Source: Rhizodiscina lignyota
Lineage: Eukaryota > Ascomycota > Dothideomycetes > Aulographales > Rhizodiscinaceae
Reading direction: 5' to 3'
Assembly (NCBI GenBank): GCA_010015805.1
Contig: ML978121.1
Coordinates: 1,426,001 to 1,490,000 of the forward strand
DNA length: 64,000 bases
Shown here: piece by piece, positions 26,419-62,342 of the stretch
How the letters are laid out: each line of letters opens with the position of its first letter
Numbering within the stretch: the first letter of the stretch is position 1
Position numbers and translations under genes: made by a program
The notes under the pieces: generated by a model
Database searches by the model: none
What the model was told of the DNA's origin: nothing
The model's input: the letters and a program-made list of their open reading frames with translations, nothing else

Positions 26419-27792
26419 GTATCCAGTAGTCATAAAAGTCAATACTTCGTCAGGTCATTGCTACGTTCCACTTCCGATCTCCGGCCGCCGAACGCAAGCA
26501 AATTCAGATATCCATGAAATTCGACGGCCACACATTCTTAATTCTGCAGCCGCCGCAACGTTTATGGCCGCATGCCTCGCAGCGCGGCCTGCCAAAGCAT
26601 GACGGCTCCCAAAAAGCCATCCCTCGTCTGCAGTTGCAGCACACTACCTTTCTGATTGACTTAGTTTTTGAGGGCATCTTGCAATATCAGTGAGATGGGC
26701 TTAATCTGTTGTGATTCGTTATTGCTGATCAGGTTCTGAGATAGCATTGAAGTGAGTATACGAAACCTCGGCGTATATGAAGCTACGCAACAGATCATGG
26801 TGAGAAGTTTCGTCAATGTGAGACAGAATCGCTTTGTTGCACTCCTTTGAGAACAAGACCAGGAGACATCAAAGAGCTCCTGAAGCATCATGACCCCCAT
26901 TGTGAGCCACACTAGCTCTTTGTTGATTGTTTCTAGTCGACATGAAGACCGATTATAGCTCTGCTTTGAATGTGATCCAAATTCGTTCAGTCACACTTGG
27001 AAAATGGGATGCTGACTTTACATCGGGGAAAAAACTGAGATATTTCGACACCCGGACAGCTACTTTCTATCCCCTCTCACGACCGCAATCTTGCCTTAAT
27101 AATTATAATACTAGTATAAAATGAACTATAAGGATTAGTCTATGTAAATCTCTACTTTATTTTAATAAGAAAATTAATATTCGTCGAGAAAACTGGCGAA
27201 CAATTGCTGATATCTGAGTGTCAATGGCGTGTCACTTTTTCGCCCGACGTAGGGGCTGAGTAGCTACTTCGTATTCACGGGGGCGGTCAAGGGTACCTAA
27301 ACCTGGGTACCCCGCCCCACTGGGGATTGGATTGGGGTTCCGCCCTTTAAGGGCAAAGCCCTCTTCAGAAGATCGCCACGAAGATCTTAACTACTGCTCT
27401 GTACAAATATATTCACCGTCAAATCCTCTTGATTCTAGTGTTGCCTATTGGCGTGTTCGTCTCCGCATTTTGGCCCTTGGGGTCCGTTTTCAGGCCGGAC
27501 CTCTCAGAAGACACCCGTCAGCCATAGGCCGTTTCCTTGCGCTAGTCCAAGCCTCGTTACTGAGGCGGTGACTCCTTCTTGACTCCCTTTTCTACAGGCA
27601 GCGTAGGTATAAGTCATTGTCTGTGTCGCGTGCTACCTTTCCCAGTGTCTTCATCGTCCAGTTACACATGCGACGCGGCGATAGAAGATTTCCTTTGAGG
27701 TCTCTCACGATATACAGAGTATCTTTCTGACTGTTTCAGCTATTGTCAACGTCCTTCACCCGCTTGTCGTTTCATTATTCCTCCCCGTCATA
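26419..27792. other. Gene-free region with AT-rich tract and hairpin
   Basis: A strongly AT-rich patch (about 27085-27185) looks RIP-decayed. An inverted repeat at 27279-27318 contains GGGTACC and GGTACCC flanked by GGGCGG and CGCCC. From about 27.4 kb the sequence should be the promoter and leader of the next gene. Confidence 0.45.
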
Positions 27793-30700
27793 ATGCAAAT
27801 CAATTTCGATATACCACTCATACGAGATGGTAAAAGCAAAGACCTTGTCTCATATCTCAATGAACTTCGACAGAATCACTCGGATGTCGCCATTTGCCAA
27901 TCACTGTTTGAAGCTGTTGATCAAGAATATATCCCGCCAGATATCTTCAGCATATTTATTCCCTGGTCAAAGTCTTCCGATATCATTGCACTGTGCGTTC
28001 ACAATCAACAATCCCGTTTCGTTCGAAATCAAGGCATCAAGTTCTTCGGCAAGGTACTGGCGGATCCCGAACGGTGGGAGGCTGCGTGGTTGGCTTTAGG
28101 CGGATCTGAAGGACTCGTCAGTCTGTTCGCAGAACTCTCCGTCATAGATGTCAGGGCTCTGTCAACTGCAATTGGTTGCTGTAAACGTGCTCAGCATGAA
28201 GATGGAGTGCGAGAGGAAACCATCGAGGAGTTGCTGCGAGCACTTCTACCGACGCACTATCCCGGATCGAAATATGAAAGCCATGACAAACGTCCTATTC
28301 AGCACCACTATGCTCAAATGGCGCCTGCATGCTCGGACGAATTTATTGCCGAATTACTGGATGCCGAAGACGAGTCAAATCCGCTTTATCGACGACTCCC
28401 TGTGACACGCTTGATCAGGACTCACGGAGAGCTCTTACGAAGGCGGGTCATCGAAGGCATCTTTGGGGATGGAAATGAGGACAAGCAACTTCCTCAATTT
28501 CTAGCAGCGTTCGTATACAGCCAACCACCCAGACCTGGACCAGATCAGAAGGTGTCAGCATCCATGGCATTTGCAATGAGCGTCTTGCAGTCCCGACTCA
28601 AAGACATCGATAATGATAAATATTGGCCTGCGACGGTATCTGAAGCCGACATATTCTTCTCACTCTTTCGACGAAGTCTTAAAAAGAGATTGCCCGAGGC
28701 TAGAGTATACGACGTCATCAAACTCGGGCTGCAGATGGTGGAGGCTCAGCCAAAGCTGAAATCCAACTTTAAGTCCAAAGATATCTGGTCCAAGCTGATT
28801 GCACGTTGGAAGAGAACGCCAAAACTCTATGGAGACTTGATTTCGCTTGCTTTGCGTTTGGGACTGGGGGCAAAATCGGAGAAAACAATTTCAAGAGACT
28901 TCCTTCAAACTCTACAAGCTGCCAGCTTGAGGCCAGAATTGCGGTGGCCACTGCTTCGATTGTACTGTCTTCACGTCCCCAGGAAAGGTATCGACATAGA
29001 TAGCGCCGACGACTACACGACCCTTGGGGATCAGCAATGGTCTAGTGATCTCTTCTACCAGCTAAACACGAGTCAAGCACTTCGACTATTGAAAGGCCTT
29101 CAGGACGCGAATCCGGAATATCCATTTTTGGTTGGGTCTGGGGTTTTGGCCGATCAGAAGATCTCAACTTATCACAACTTCAATGCTGAACTCCTTGAAG
29201 TTATTCTCCGGCGCGGCTCCGAAGAGACACAAAGAAAGGCCGAGGCTGCCGTCGACGATCTCCGCAAGAAGTCCGCGACTGCAAGGGAACAATTGGACCG
29301 AGCCCGACTTGCGAAAGGTGCTTCTTCTTATGCTATCGCAAGCGGCAGTCTTGACCTTTACGCCGAGACAATCACTTGGCAGCAGCGATACGTTCGGGAT
29401 CCTCTTACTGTGAAAACCATATTTGCCCGGGATGCCGTCACCACTACAGAAGGGATCGAGCTTCTCTCCGGGATACCGAAACCGTTTTCGAGTTTGGCGG
29501 AAGTCGCATCAAGAGTGGAGAAGGCAAACAAGATCTTACTGACTCTGGAGGAGACAATGCGAATGGCGAAACGAGAGCCCTCCTTCCACCAGCCAGATTG
29601 GCAATTTATCAGCCAGTTATTTGGGGATGTCATCAGTCAACGCGTCGCTCGCGCCACCGATCTGCAGAAGCATCTGAAAGGTTCCGATGCGGACGTGTAT
29701 ACTGCAATATGGGGAGGAACCTTGGCCATGGTGGAGAAAGTAGGCGTTGACTTCCTAAATGCAGCTCGTGGCCCGATCAGAGACCTCTTCGAAACCCTCC
29801 CTCCAAAAGCTCTGGCTGCTACAACGAAGTCTATGCTCGAAGCTGGTAAGGAGAGGCGGAAGAAGCAAGACCGTGAGCCAGGAGATGATATTCTGGAGCA
29901 TCTGTCATACGATGTGCTGCTGCGGCTCGGTAAAAGCGACAAGCCCGAATTAGGGCAGCAGCTTGTTCTCCAGACAATCCTCGATCGACCAGATGCAAGC
30001 TCTTGGCATCGACAAATGTTGTCGGTGGCGTTTATGAAACGTCTCTCCGCCAAAGATGCCCAGGAACTACTTCTTGCATTTGCAGTTGGAATTAGTGAAA
30101 AGCTTGGGGAGCAATCGTTTGTCAGAGTGGGAGAAGCAGAACCAGCCAAATCAGCACCGCCCCAGTCGCTTGTTAAAGTCACTACGGTCAAATACCTAGC
30201 GCAACTCCTTGACAACGCCGAGTTCATCTCAGCAGACAACGCAGTGGAGGTACTAGTGGAACTGTTCAAGGCCGGGACGCACAGGGATATTCGTCTCGCC
30301 ACTCTCGACAGCCTGTTGAGCTTGCTGAACAGCATATGTAGCCGAGGGGACGAGGGTTGGAGATCTAACCCGTTGGTTGAGAAGATAATGGGAGCTCTGG
30401 AGACCGTCATCCCAGTTTTGGTATTTAGGGAGCGCCAACCAATGAGACCCCAGGACTGGGAAGAAGCTAAAGAGACGGGAACCGTGCCAGCTATTCCTGA
30501 CGTATCTCTTGACCTCCCTCCGTTGTTGAATGCTATGCTTACAGCAGCCGATGGACGCCAATACCCTGGTCTGAAAAACTTGCAAGCTGAGTTTGTGGCC
30601 CGGTTCTTCTTGCCCATTCTCGAGCTGTCCCAAGCAGAGCATATGAGATGGGTTGCATTGTTCCTCACTAAATACAATTACAAGGCGAGGTTCACTGTAA

Positions 30701-31821
30701 AGGACCTCCCTCGGACGCCAGTTAGGGTCCGGGTATGGGAGACTCTCGTACGGTCCTATCCCGATTTTGTTCCCCAGACTGTGTTTGAAGACTACAATGA
30801 GCATATCGTCATGACAATCGCACCACCTGCGGCACTTACAGACTTCAATAAGTCTCTCAGAGCGGATCCGAATCTCCGGAATACGGCTGAAGTCCGGCAT
30901 TGGCTCTTAATCTTTGGCCGAAGCATGAACCAGTACTCGTCCTCTGGAACTCAGACATTCGTGTCTATGGTCCATCATGGCTGGCCAACTCCTTCAATTC
31001 AGAATGGCATCTCCGCGGAGTGGTTGATGAGCGCAATCAACAGCCATGCATCACTCTTCCTCAACGATTATGAGAGGTACACGGGTGTCTGGAAACTCTT
31101 CACACGGGATTTACGTATGCCTTCCGAGAGTCCTGGCTCTATTCCCTCGATGGTGTCAGCATGGCAGAAAAGTGGCAGACTCTTGCTCGAGCAAATCACA
31201 TCGCTGGTAGTCCGTACAAGGATCAGGCATGCCGCAGAGAATAAGCGTACTCTTCTTCCCTCGGTTACGAAACTTCGTCTTTGGCTCCTGCCTTATCCTT
31301 GCTTCCCAGACATAACGGAAGCCGATTTTGTCAAGGCATTAGAGGAGCTTCTAGATACTCTTCTGAAAGGTGAAGCTAACGTCCTCCGTTGGCCCAACCT
31401 TGCCGAAGATGCCTTCACGATCTCTGAATTGCTCAACACGGATGAAGAACGACTACGGGTTGCGTCATACATTGGAGGACTCGAGGAGCCATCAGATAAG
31501 AGTATCTCGGAATCGTCTGCCCAGAAACCTTCGTCTGGAGGTTCCACAAGCGATCCAGAGTCGAGAACTACCAGTGATCAAAGGGAGTCAGCTTTGAACC
31601 TCATCCGAGTTGCGCTTGCGCTAAGGCTCATTGAAGAGGGACAGAACGGTTTGAAGAAGGATGCCAAGGGCGAATTAGTGGCGGAAAGCAAGGATCTTGT
31701 CCAACGCCTCCAGAAGAGGATTGTGCACTGGCAGAACGATGACGATGAGAGCATCCGAGAGCGGATCGCAGAGTGGAGAAAGCAAGAGAACGGGCTTTGG
31801 AAGACTTTGATGGGTAAATAA
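27793..31821 (+). CDS. Large conserved fungal protein, predominantly helical (HEAT/ARM-like)
   Basis: A 1342-aa intronless protein starting at ATG 27793 (CATAATGC context). I do not recognise a named family. The sequence is almost entirely amphipathic helices with repeated Leu/Ala patterns over its full length, as in HEAT or ARM solenoids, for example around ELLLAFAVGISEKLGEQ and AVEVLVELFKAG followed by ATLDSLLSLLNS. It has no signal peptide and no membrane helix. A Ser-rich disordered insert (about residues 1236-1262) precedes a final coiled-coil-like segment. Such proteins usually act as scaffolds, so a cytosolic or nuclear scaffold role is inference. Codon use and length support a real gene. 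It converges with the GT2 gene, 614 bp away. Confidence 0.85.
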   Translation: MQINFDIPLIRDGKSKDLVSYLNELRQNHSDVAICQSLFEAVDQEYIPPDIFSIFIPWSKSSDIIALCVHNQQSRFVRNQGIKFFGKVLADPERWEAAWLALGGSEGLVSLFAELSVIDVRALSTAIGCCKRAQHEDGVREETIEELLRALLPTHYPGSKYESHDKRPIQHHYAQMAPACSDEFIAELLDAEDESNPLYRRLPVTRLIRTHGELLRRRVIEGIFGDGNEDKQLPQFLAAFVYSQPPRPGPDQKVSASMAFAMSVLQSRLKDIDNDKYWPATVSEADIFFSLFRRSLKKRLPEARVYDVIKLGLQMVEAQPKLKSNFKSKDIWSKLIARWKRTPKLYGDLISLALRLGLGAKSEKTISRDFLQTLQAASLRPELRWPLLRLYCLHVPRKGIDIDSADDYTTLGDQQWSSDLFYQLNTSQALRLLKGLQDANPEYPFLVGSGVLADQKISTYHNFNAELLEVILRRGSEETQRKAEAAVDDLRKKSATAREQLDRARLAKGASSYAIASGSLDLYAETITWQQRYVRDPLTVKTIFARDAVTTTEGIELLSGIPKPFSSLAEVASRVEKANKILLTLEETMRMAKREPSFHQPDWQFISQLFGDVISQRVARATDLQKHLKGSDADVYTAIWGGTLAMVEKVGVDFLNAARGPIRDLFETLPPKALAATTKSMLEAGKERRKKQDREPGDDILEHLSYDVLLRLGKSDKPELGQQLVLQTILDRPDASSWHRQMLSVAFMKRLSAKDAQELLLAFAVGISEKLGEQSFVRVGEAEPAKSAPPQSLVKVTTVKYLAQLLDNAEFISADNAVEVLVELFKAGTHRDIRLATLDSLLSLLNSICSRGDEGWRSNPLVEKIMGALETVIPVLVFRERQPMRPQDWEEAKETGTVPAIPDVSLDLPPLLNAMLTAADGRQYPGLKNLQAEFVARFFLPILELSQAEHMRWVALFLTKYNYKARFTVKDLPRTPVRVRVWETLVRSYPDFVPQTVFEDYNEHIVMTIAPPAALTDFNKSLRADPNLRNTAEVRHWLLIFGRSMNQYSSSGTQTFVSMVHHGWPTPSIQNGISAEWLMSAINSHASLFLNDYERYTGVWKLFTRDLRMPSESPGSIPSMVSAWQKSGRLLLEQITSLVVRTRIRHAAENKRTLLPSVTKLRLWLLPYPCFPDITEADFVKALEELLDTLLKGEANVLRWPNLAEDAFTISELLNTDEERLRVASYIGGLEEPSDKSISESSAQKPSSGGSTSDPESRTTSDQRESALNLIRVALALRLIEEGQNGLKKDAKGELVAESKDLVQRLQKRIVHWQNDDDESIRERIAEWRKQENGLWKTLMGK

Positions 31822-32435: not shown

Positions 32436-34975
32436 TTAGAAGAAAAAGGCTGCAGCAAACACGAGCGCCGTAAATGCCGTAGTTATACAGTATTCCACTT
32501 CAAACAGAGCTGTTTGCGGTTTAAAGGCAGTTTTCTTGGCATGTCTCGTCGGATGAGCGATGCCGGTCTTCGAATCTCGGTCCAGCAATGCTTCTCTATC
32601 AGGCATGCTTGGTGGATCAATCGCATATGTGACTGGAATCCAGAATGCGCTGCATGTCATGACCCAGGCCACGGGAGGCCAGAAGGCATGTGTTAGAAGA
32701 CATTCCAGCTGATCGCGCGTTGTAGGTTTATCCAGGAGGCAGTGAAGACTAGTCAGAGTAACGGCTGTGAGACAGAAGTAAACGTAGAGAACGTGGTAGC
32801 CGGCGAGGTAGTTGAGGACGATGATGCGGAGTCGGCGAAAGAGAGGAGCGCGGGCGGCAGGGTCGCGCTCATTGAGTTCGGACTTGAGTGAACCAGATGG
32901 CTTGAAAGCTTGAGTTTGGCCTCCGAGCCACCTCGGGAGTACGAAAGAGCGAACGATTGTGAGCGCGATATACGGGCTCATCCAGAGCTGTGCGCGACTT
33001 CCGCGCTGGCCGGTTGCATAGCCAGAGGGTATGAAGAGGACGACCTCGCAGATGCGGTTCATGATGAAAGCGGCGAAGCAGGAACGAATGAGCCAACGGA
33101 GTTGTTCGTCGTTTGCGTAAGCAACGAGTGCGTTTCCGGTGATGAGAACGATCGGCAGCGCGAAGAGGGAGAGGGTGAGGAATACGTTGAACAAGCTGAG
33201 GACGGCGTAGATGAAGCTAGACATTCGTTGATAGAAGGTCATCTGGCGGACAGCGTCTCCATAGAGACAGAACTTGAGTTTGAATGACGTGTCCACAGTG
33301 CCGATTGCCTGGCTCCAAGTTAGTGACAATCATGTAAAACTTGGCGGTAGGATTTACCCATCTCGTCCTCTGCTTCAAATGGCTTCCATAGCTGTCAGGA
33401 ACTGTTCCGAACTGCAGCGGCTCATGGATATATGCGGTTTTCCAACCCTTTCCCAGCATAAGTGTAGAAGTAGCGACATCCTCTGCGAGCGATCCTTTAG
33501 GAAACAAACCAATCTCCTCGAGCGCATCCCTGCGGAGTACATAACCACTACCCGTGCACCATGCAACACCTAATGCGTCTTTTATTGGTTCTGATACATG
33601 CACAAAGAAATCGAGGCTTTGGCAGAGTGGATCGCCTGGTGGAACGTTGTAGAAAAGCTGGGGCGGACATGCGAGAGCCACTTTAGGATCAGCAAGTAGA
33701 TGAGGGACGATTGCACGAAGCCAGCTCTGCTCAGGTATCATGTCCGCATCCAACGCAGCGACGTACTGAGAAGCTCCACCCGGCATATCAATGACCTCTT
33801 CGAGCCCATAGTTCAGGTTACCAGCCTTGAAGTGGTGCGGTACTCCGGGAATCTTCGTTCTGGCGCGATAATGCAAATTTGGATATATCTCAGTCAGCCC
33901 TTGGACGGACCTTTGCAGCTCTGCCGATTTTGCGTCGTCCAGAACAACGACCCGGAATTTGTTCAGCGGATAGTCCACATCACAGGAAGCTCGCACGGTG
34001 TCCAGAATCAGGTCCACCTCTTCTCCACAGCACGTGATAAAGACGTCGACGGTAGGGACGTCCTTACCCACAAGACGAAGCTTAGGGCGTTTCCTCTTTT
34101 TCAGAGAAAATATCGTGAAGAACGACTGCAGGAAGATAGGAATGGCCACGGAGATTTCAACGACGATAAAAACCCACGCGAGTGGAAACCAGCGGTGCTG
34201 TTGTCTCTGTGCCGAAAGGACGAAGAGTATCCTTAGGGTGAAATAGAGCCAGTACAAGCCCAGAGTGAGGATGGCCAGGATCGGAGCGCTGAAGTAGAGG
34301 TATCGCTTCCAGTTCGAGAGCTGGCCGACGTCGTCTCGGCTATGGACTTTCGCAATAAGACCTTCTTTAACCCAATCTTTGTCGAATATTTGGGATGGCG
34401 ATGCCGGAAACAATGGTTTGTTTATTTCAGAGCTCTGGTTCAAATTAGTGTGAGCTTTGCGAGGGTCTTAATGTAGTTCATACCAGAGGTGTTGGAGTGT
34501 TGGAAGAAGCATATGATAAATGTTGATACGGTTGACCGTGAGAGAGCCATGAGGGATGTGGGCTAGTAAATGGTGTGCCCGGCGGACTCTCAGCATACAA
34601 ATCAAGTGATGAGTGTCCTGGTCGAAAAACAGGACGCGTGGCCACGGGCTCGGCTGTGTAAAAGGAGCTTCGTCGCCGCGCGAACGGTTGTATCTCGTCT
34701 ACTTGTTCGTCGCTCTTGTTCTTCCTGTCTTCCACCAGTCTTGCCGATTCCATGGAAGAATGTCCATTCAGCGGCCACACCTCCCTCTCGGCCTCTGTTC
34801 GCATCGGGGAGATGGGCACAAGCTGCTCATACTTCTCTTTTGTCTCATGACTAGAGTTGTCGTCGTTCGCGGTATGTAGGGAAGGGGTGAGCGATCTTTG
34901 GTACGCCGATGGTGGTCTGGTAAGAGTCGGATGCAGCGCTTCGTAGTCGTCAACGATAGGGCGAATCGTTGACAT
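32436..34975 (-). CDS. Processive family 2 glycosyltransferase (cellulose-synthase-like)
   Basis: Polytopic membrane GT2 that would polymerise a beta-linked glycan at the plasma membrane. Three exons: 34975-34484, 34434-33358 and 33308-32436, with two 49-nt introns, give 813 aa. The first intron joins NTPTPL to SSEINKPLF; the second joins QRTRW to AIGTVDTS. All processive GT2 signatures are present: VVLDDAKS (about 327), the DxD in AALDADMIPEQSW (about 389), TGSGYVL, the catalytic ED in LAEDVATS (about 482) and QRTRW (519-523). Residues 1-165 are disordered and Ser/Pro-rich. Two membrane helices precede the catalytic loop and several follow. Known fungal relatives include a GT2 needed for hyphal growth in Zymoseptoria and the Aspergillus mixed-linkage glucan synthase Tft1; which of these is orthologous cannot be told by eye. 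It is divergent from the GH12 gene. Confidence 0.93.
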
Positions 34976-35507
34976 TGCGCTTGGCCGGCAAACACTTATA
35001 ACAAAACGAAAGTAGTACGAGATACCTCAGTATCTCAGTGATGTGTTGGAACGAGTGACAAAGTAGCGAATGAAGAGTCGAGAATAGGATTGCACCAGTG
35101 AAACAAAAGGGAAGAAGGAAAGCTTGCAAGTTTGACAGGTAGGACAAGCTATCAGCGGGACATCCCTCCGGAGCAGCGAAAACACGGCACGGTGTAGTGG
35201 CTGGCGCGTCGCGCACGTTATCCGCAGTGTTGAATCAGGTTGGTGAACGTATCAAACTTGGTGGCTGCGGGCCCACAAAATTCAAGGAGTGATGTTGATA
35301 AGAACAACACCAAGCCGATAAACGCACTGAGACCTGATCATCCTGGAAATACAATATATCGGACGGAAGATCCCACACTGCTTAATTCAGGTCAACGCCC
35401 TCCTTACCTACCTACTTTGCTCTGATGATCTTCGCTCTTCTATATCTCTCCTGAGGGTTCTGGCCTCGAAGACACTCCATCACAGGACAGGCCCTCCGGC
35501 AACAAAA
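34976..35507. promoter_or_regulatory. Shared divergent promoter region of GT2 and GH12
   Basis: 532 bp between the GT2 ATG (34975, minus) and the GH12 ATG (35508, plus). No reading frame is supported. It must hold both promoters; no specific site is identified with confidence. Confidence 0.55.
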
Positions 35508-36943
35508 ATGTTCTTCCTCGCTCTTCTCAGTGGCTCTCTCTTCATCCTACCAGTTGCTGTTACTATCGGCGTCTTCCTCGGTGTCGAGCGACAGCGCATC
35601 TTCAGCGGGGACGCCAGCACTGGCGGCGGCGGAGGAGGAGGAGGCATCTTCGGGTTGGGAAGACCGAAAGTCACCACAGATACGTACTGCCAGAAGTCGT
35701 ACGGCATAACGCCCTTTCCCGGGCGGTACATCTGTACGTCTCAGTTCCCCTGCAGTAGCTCCGACGCAGCGGTTGCGTTGGCAGAAGCATGAGGCGTCGT
35801 CTTGATTTGTGCCATCGGCGTTATTAACCTCCTTGAACCCCGTCACGCTAACCATATACAGTTAACCCAAATCAGTTACGTCGATGTCCCTGCTCGAATC
35901 AACTTTAGGTTCGCTGCCGCGAAAGCCCTGTTTCTAACGATTGACGCAGATGGGGTGATGAGCAAGATTTGGGCGACCTGTGCCTGAACGTGAGTGTCCG
36001 CCACTTTCTCTTCAGCTTTCGTCATCGTGGCTGACGACGCCTCGTTGCACCTTGCCACTTTTGCGCTCGGTCGCGCTTTGATCACGTCCCCAATTTTAAC
36101 GTCTCCGTCGTTTCCGTCGTTTCCATGTGATTCCTTGTTTCAGACAGCTGTTGTGTGACTGCGCTTGCTGAAAACTCCTGCAGATAACAACAAGCACAGC
36201 AACGAAGAGCAGCGAAGTGTACGCTGCAGGATGGTCAGTGACAGTAAGTGTCTCCTTGCTATTCAAGTTGTCGTGATTAACCCCTTTTACAGTGGCAGTA
36301 TCCGCCTGGGTCGGCGGACGAGCCTGTGCATGCTTTTCCAAACGCCAAACTTGAATTGAACGACACAATTCCGGCGCAGCTATCCGACATTAAATCCCTT
36401 TTCCTCGATGTGACGTGGACATATGGACTTGGCAACTATATTCACAACGAGACGAATAGCACTAATCTGGAAGCCGCCGGCGTTAATGCAAACGTCGCGG
36501 TCGATATGTTCTTTGCAAAAGATAAAACCAACTCCACAAGTACCACCGATTCCGATTACGAAGTAATGGTTTGGTTGGGACGCTGGGGAGCAGCCGTGGA
36601 CCCTATCGGCCTTGCGAGCGGAATTAAAGCTAACCACAGCATCAACGGTACTCATTTGTATGTTGCACAATCCAGATCATACGACAGTGCTAATTCCTTT
36701 CGAAGCTCTTTGTACTATGGTGACAACCAGAACACTGGCCAGACGGTATTCACATGGGTAGCGGATCAGAATACGACTTCCTTCACAGGGGATTTGACGC
36801 CGCTCGTGTCAAAACTAGAAGAGAATGCTGGGCCAGATGGGAAAAGTTATCTTGGATATGCTGCATTCGGCTCCGAAGCACTGTACTCCTTTGAGAACGT
36901 CACCTTTTTTGTGCCACGTCTGGAGATGGATGTCCAGGCATAG
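35508..36943 (+). CDS. Membrane-anchored glycoside hydrolase family 12 (endo-beta-1,4-glucanase-like)
   Basis: Five exons: 35508-35733, 35862-35874 (13 nt), 35950-35989, 36184-36243 and 36293-36943, giving 329 aa. The short exons are supported by family text: they build TPFPGRYIFNPNQWGDEQDL, then GDLCLN, matching the GH12 N-terminal YxLNPNQWG...LCLN pattern, and lead to WSVTWQYPPG, VHAFPN and LDVTWTYG. Candidate catalytic glutamates are E203 in DYEVMVWLG and E308 in FGSEALY. The first about 25 residues form a signal-anchor helix (FLALLSGSLFILPVAVTIGV) followed by charged residues and a poly-Gly linker. The enzyme is therefore probably tethered outside the plasma membrane rather than freely secreted. 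The likely substrate is a beta-1,4-containing glucan. The neighbour in divergent orientation is a GT2 synthase. Confidence 0.85.
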
Positions 36944-62116: not shown

Positions 62117-62317
62117 ATGAAGAGCACTCTCTCGGCTCCTTCGGACAACAATCAACGCCAATCTCATGAAGAGCATACTCCTCCCGGCTCTTTCGGCTGC
62201 AATGCGACATGAGGAAATGATGGACAATGAACGCCAACCCAATGAAGAGCATACTCCTCTCGGCTCTTTCGGATGCAACGCGACATGAGAAATGCTGGAC
62301 AATTAACGCCAAACCAA
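62117..62317. repeat. Tandem repeat, 76-bp unit, two full copies and one shortened
   Basis: Units start ATGAAGAGCA at 62166 and 62242 and are near identical over 76 bp (containing CGGCTCTTTCGG, GACATGAG and ACGCCAA). A first copy at 62117-62165 lacks about 27 internal bases. The array lies just past the stop codon of the gene ending at 62343, possibly inside its 3' untranslated region. No coding role is seen. Confidence 0.85.
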
Positions 62318-62342
62318 TGCAATCGTGACTTTCATGTGTAGC

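Follow-up and report, generated by a model that had tools for sequence, protein, structure and literature searches.

The stretch of DNA analysed here (the window) comprises 64,000 nucleotides of contig ML978121.1 of Rhizodiscina lignyota (Dothideomycetes, Aulographales), and contains a gene for a family GT2 synthase and a gene for a family GH12 endoglucanase that diverge head to head. An earlier reading made from the letters alone (the sequence-only reading) had described the two as a divergent synthase-glucanase pair separated by 532 bp, a distance with which the start-codon coordinates of the gene models agree. The features of the locus, in window coordinates, are as follows.

32436..34975, minus strand: GT2 synthase gene, assigned by sequence as the Tft1/CelA orthologue, 813 amino acids; exons 34975-34484, 34434-33358 and 33308-32436
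34976..35507, no strand: intergenic region of 532 bp between both start codons (start-codon coordinates), presumably a shared promoter
35508..36943, plus strand: GH12 endoglucanase gene with a predicted N-terminal membrane helix, 313 amino acids (splice model, Pfam PF01670, fold of a homologue)
35508-35733, 35862-35874, 35950-35989, 36184-36243, 36293-36657 and 36706-36943, plus strand: exons of the GH12 gene
35508..35597, plus strand: N-terminal hydrophobic helix of GH12, residues 1-30, with P15, T19, G21 and G25 conserved (relatives, column counts, model of homologue P0004)
35598..35687, plus strand: Gly-rich linker of GH12, approximately residues 31-60 (sequence, low conservation, and low predicted local distance difference test score, pLDDT, in the P0004 model)
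36560..36562, plus strand: codon of GH12 Glu203, presumed catalytic nucleophile (YEVMVW), conserved in 49/49 rows
36875..36877, plus strand: codon of GH12 Glu292, presumed acid/base (GSEAL), in 48/49 rows; aligns with the GTEP glutamate of PDB 5gm3

The gene pair can be regarded as lying beyond chance, because the GT2 model is identical to an annotated protein, the Pfam scores are well above their cut-offs, and the linkage of the two genes is kept across fungal classes.

The spliced three-exon GT2 model matches the public R. lignyota protein (P0098) in every letter. It contains the complete motif set of processive GT2 enzymes (D, DxD, ED, QxxRW), as had been proposed from the sequence, and the corresponding residues DD330-331, DAD393-395, ED482-483 and QRTRW519-523 are invariant in 40 aligned relatives. 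Comparison with Tft1 of Aspergillus fumigatus (P0141) gave 61% identity over 713 columns, while two other Tft1-like loci of the R. lignyota genome, compared as single open reading frame (ORF) pieces, reached 43% over 267 and 35% over 333 columns. P0141 was recognised as Tft1 by eye, since it starts with MNGHYGQ and has KPHHFK and EPLQFG, the peptides that the published Tft1 primers SB-1, OL-9 and OL-10 encode. By sequence, the window GT2 is thus the orthologue of the Tft1/CelA mixed-linkage glucan synthase. Tft1 is needed for (1,3;1,4)-beta-glucan in A. fumigatus, and its deletion abolishes mixed-linkage glucan (PMC4344333, available text). Given this orthology, the product of the window synthase is probably mixed-linkage, barley-type glucan rather than cellulose. 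No PilZ domain was among the Pfam matches of the synthase at E 0.001. The earlier proposal of a synthase-glucanase pair stands as regards a processive GT2 beside a GH12 with a conserved N-terminal helix.

The sequence-only reading had named two fungal GT2s, Aspergillus Tft1 and the Zymoseptoria enzyme. Of these, Tft1 is the orthologue; identity with the Zymoseptoria enzyme was dropped, as nothing ties the window GT2 to it and Tft1 fits at 61%, a decision taken on descriptions and not on a comparison with the Zymoseptoria sequence. ZtGT2 of Zymoseptoria and FgGT2 of Fusarium resemble the window protein as fungal GT2 enzymes with hyphal roles. ZtGT2 is set apart by its description only: its domain is given as cd06434, and neither 'Tft1' nor 'cellulose synthase' appears in the main text of its paper. 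In the available part of PMC13224840, Tft1 occurs solely in a reference title.

The GH12 gene was modelled with six exons on the plus strand encoding 313 amino acids, all five introns having GT-AG borders. The product scored 76.9 bits against Pfam Glyco_hydro_12 (PF01670; cut-off 27) and had no other Pfam match, neither a GH8 nor a GH9 domain being found. Splicing out of a 48-bp intron, as in the public model and in relatives, raised this score from 65.3 to 76.9 bits. Within window positions 35734-35989, the public annotation (P0001, 306 amino acids) omits the 13-nt micro-exon at 35862-35874, which codes part of an NPNQWG motif. Since this motif is near-invariant among relatives (N77 and W81, each in 48/49), the micro-exon is very likely real, and genes of this family may be mis-modelled by gene finders. 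Both presumed catalytic glutamates are kept, E203 and E292 with the counts listed above; on this ground, and given the open exons and the five GT-AG introns, the reading as a pseudogene was rejected. The predicted structure of the homologue P0004 folds as a GH12 beta jelly roll. Its best fold matches include xyloglucanases, sequence identity to the GH12 rows of known structure is 24-30%, and the fold comparison does not discriminate substrate. Several GH12 homologues carry the annotation xyloglucan-specific endoglucanase. For the fungal GH12 Cel12A of G. trabeum, the available text of PMC4177221 gives the highest activity on beta-glucan, followed by lichenan.

Residues 2-20 of the GH12 protein form a hydrophobic segment with a mean hydropathy of 2.32, followed by the Gly-rich linker, in agreement with what the sequence-only reading had described. 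The segment is kept in 47 of 49 GH12 relatives of at least 290 amino acids, and mean conservation of helix residues 9-30 (0.58) is close to that of catalytic residues 111-313 (0.59). P15 is found in 47/49 rows and G21 in 41/48. The least conserved stretch is the linker (residues 31-56, mean 0.41). The P0004 model contains one unbroken 32-residue helix (residues 2-33), with pLDDT below 50 at residues 33-47. A cysteine pair, C61/C91, occurs in 48/50 GH12 rows, and each domain has 2-10 N-glycosylation sequons, for which reason the GH12 domain is read as located outside. These sequence and model data suggest that the enzyme is seemingly held in the membrane by its conserved N-terminal helix.

Linkage of the two genes in other fungi was assessed by comparing by eye the list of 97 GH12 matches with two lists of GT2 matches (the best 120 of 370 and the best 120 of 396), in which rows are clusters at 90% identity. 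The same contig size for both proteins was taken as a shared contig, not as adjacency, which rests on six pairs of locus tags. Sixteen species, R. lignyota included, are named in both the GH12 and the GT2 lists; 13 of the 15 others are linked and two cannot be judged. The longest contig of the GT2 and GH12 proteins is equal to the base in 13 of the 16 species, namely Rhizodiscina, Aulographum, Lineolata, Meristemomyces, Trichodelitschia, Microthyrium, Cladophialophora psammophila, Talaromyces proteolyticus, Penicillium angulare, P. taxi, P. capsulatum, Calycina marina and Grosmannia clavigera. Paecilomyces lecythidis is the 14th linked species; its longest contigs differ, but its tags are consecutive. 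The tags of same-genome pairs are consecutive in 6/6 readable cases (LTR85_007653/007654, A1O5_04479/04480, N7456_009368/009367, N7495_004361/004362, N7512_000388/000387 and Plec18167_004526/004527). The two unjudged species are Trichoderma asperellum (contigs 4134283 versus 2680503, with a tag on one side only) and Verticillium albo-atrum (rows from two genomes, tags ACHAQA and ACHAQH). About 23 further GH12-bearing species are named with no GT2 row among the best 120 listed, an absence that says nothing about linkage.

Adjacency extends over Dothideomycetes and Eurotiomycetes, and a shared contig also over Leotiomycetes (Calycina, 99.8-kb contig) and Sordariomycetes. Conservation of the adjacency is therefore wider than the Dothideomycetes, across which the sequence-only reading had suggested looking for it, and the loss of adjacency in relatives that this reading had named as a refutation was not what was found; the head-to-head orientation is known from the Rhizodiscina window alone. 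By a rough estimate, chance alone would place two given genes side by side in about 2 of 10,000 cases when a genome has some ten thousand genes. Identities of the GT2 and GH12 proteins across the 14 linked species are correlated (r 0.66; 1/10,000 permutations as high), with four of the 14 GH12 rows truncated or oddly modelled. This congruence was not counted as functional evidence, as common descent alone yields it.

Other GT2 and GH12 loci of the same genome served as controls. No glycoside hydrolase was found near the GT2 paralogues on contigs C10 and C9 among 34 ORFs of at least 130 amino acids, in stretches of about 20 kb each. Apart from the window gene, the genome gave a single GH12 match (L001, contig C16, 67780-68407); it has a plain secretion-type N-terminus, in contrast to the membrane-helix GH12 of the window, and no GT2 lies near it among 8 ORFs of at least 130 amino acids in 10 kb; the whole-genome GT2 search also gave no match on C16.

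The paralogous loci have features of their own. The second Tft1-like GT2 (L009-L010, contig C10, about 31-51 kb) is 36% identical to the window GT2 and is accompanied by sulfotransferase-like, acyltransferase-like, guanosine diphosphate (GDP)-mannose dehydratase/epimerase-like and major facilitator superfamily (MFS)-like genes; together they may represent a cluster for a different polysaccharide, perhaps a modified one. The third GT2 (L011 and L012, contig C9, about 1078-1080 kb) is more distant, at 30% identity, and its catalytic motifs are altered, DD and QAAKW aligning with ED and QRTRW of Tft1.

Of 19 ORFs scanned around the pair in the window, 11 were without a Pfam match and 8 had one, in one case below its cut-off. 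No glycoside hydrolase or glycosyltransferase was among the eight matched ORFs, so no larger cluster is evident at this locus. A frame of the carnosine N-methyltransferase family (PF07942; 38084-39328) lies about 1 kb downstream of GH12, and a 1378-amino-acid open frame on the plus strand (27685-31818), with no Pfam match at E 0.001, lies beyond the 3' end of GT2. A tandem repeat of a 76-bp unit in 2.3 copies was found at 62148-62319.

That the two genes have stayed adjacent, or at least on one contig, in several distantly related fungi suggests the joint building and trimming of a cell-wall polymer. The pair is probably a module that makes and trims the mixed-linkage (1,3;1,4)-beta-glucan of the fungal wall, a reading in which co-expression, contact between the proteins and the GH12 substrate are presumed. 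The Tft1-type synthase would take cytosolic uridine diphosphate (UDP)-glucose and export the chain by way of its own membrane helices. The GH12, presumably anchored in the same membrane by its N-terminal helix with its domain outside on the flexible linker, would cleave beta-1,4 bonds at the outer face, either as the chain emerges or once it has just been laid down. By analogy with the action of BcsZ and KORRIGAN on cellulose, such cutting may set chain length or free stalled chains. A bolder version, which we put forward tentatively and consider doubtful, is a module ancestral to the Pezizomycotina, with the GH12 helix packed on the synthase through its P15 and G21xxxG25 face; the glucan would then be made, and cut or cross-linked, within a single complex in the membrane. 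It weighs against a dedicated module that, on comparison of the lists, many Tft1-bearing species seem to have no GH12, in which case the enzyme would be at most accessory there.

This apparent absence also speaks for a rival view in which the two genes are neighbours only through an old accident or shared regulation, and the GH12 acts at the surface on xyloglucan or beta-glucan of plants and is unrelated to the synthase; the xyloglucan-specific annotations of homologues and the xyloglucanases among the best fold matches point the same way. Such an explanation seems unlikely, given that the linkage is maintained over four classes, that the N-terminal helix is conserved as much as the catalytic domain, and that a separate secreted-type GH12 is present in the same genome. 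In addition, the carriers Meristemomyces frigidus and Cladophialophora psammophila are rock-inhabiting and hydrocarbon-degrading fungi, not plant-degrading ones. It appears very improbable that the N-terminal segment is cleaved off like a normal signal peptide, leaving the GH12 freely secreted: the segment is indeed N-terminal and hydrophobic, and hydropathy alone cannot separate a peptide from an anchor, but it is conserved like the mature domain, carries an almost invariant Pro as well as two Gly at a spacing of four residues, and forms a single unbroken helix in the P0004 model.

A different role for an anchored enzyme would be that of an endotransglycosylase: having cleaved mixed-linkage glucan, it would transfer the new end onto a second glucan of the wall, which would thereby become cross-linked where synthesis takes place. 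GH12 enzymes have a retaining mechanism, so transfer is possible in principle; the preserved catalytic Glu pair and a tether next to the synthase fit this role. GH12 enzymes are, however, mostly described as hydrolases, and we consider transfer rather improbable here. A plant precedent is the mixed-linkage glucan:xyloglucan endotransglucosylase of Equisetum (PMC5341106, available text).

A literature search over titles and the beginnings of abstracts, with most subscription papers outside its reach, returned no description of a Tft1-type synthase/GH12 pair, in line with the sequence-only reading, to whose knowledge the pair was undescribed. In the texts available, the neighbour described for celA is a DUF3431 gene (PMC5519750), and PMC5872309 counts GH12 among 'mixed glucanases' and finds GH12 and CelA absent from two Cryptococcus species analysed, the genes not being linked there. 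No dedicated partner enzyme for fungal mixed-linkage glucan synthesis was found in the literature searched, Tft1 being the one synthase shown by deletion. The conserved linked hydrolase is a candidate for such a partner of the Tft1-type synthase, and the question becomes testable by single deletions.

The pairing of a synthase with an endoglucanase is in itself of a known kind, represented by the Bcs system and by CesA with KORRIGAN. A GH12 as the partner, a synthase of the Tft1 type and conservation over several fungal classes were not found for such a pairing in the open literature searched. The window synthase shares its motifs with Tft1 of A. fumigatus and CelA of A. nidulans, and differs in being linked to a predicted anchored GH12; the 97 GH12 matches include no Aspergillus in their named rows. 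Known-structure fungal GH12 endoglucanases and xyloglucanases are known as freely secreted enzymes and are not known to have a membrane helix, and in the fold-match rows sequence identity is only 24-30%. In bacteria, the cellulose synthase BcsA pairs with the endoglucanase BcsZ, which belongs to GH8; here the hydrolase is a GH12, the synthase has no PilZ match and the polymer is likely mixed-linkage glucan. The plant GH9 enzyme KORRIGAN is a membrane-anchored endoglucanase acting with CesA, and a likeness would lie in an endoglucanase whose conserved hydrophobic N-terminal helix is presumed here to act as an anchor, beside a GT2 synthase; the window enzyme differs in belonging to GH12 and not GH9, in the linkage of the genes and in its fungal host. 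If the proposed function is correct, evolution would have joined a membrane endoglucanase to a glucan synthase once more, this time drawing on a different hydrolase family; and if both proteins also work in one complex, the module would be a fungal counterpart of Bcs and CesA/KORRIGAN, built from an unrelated hydrolase family and serving a different polymer.
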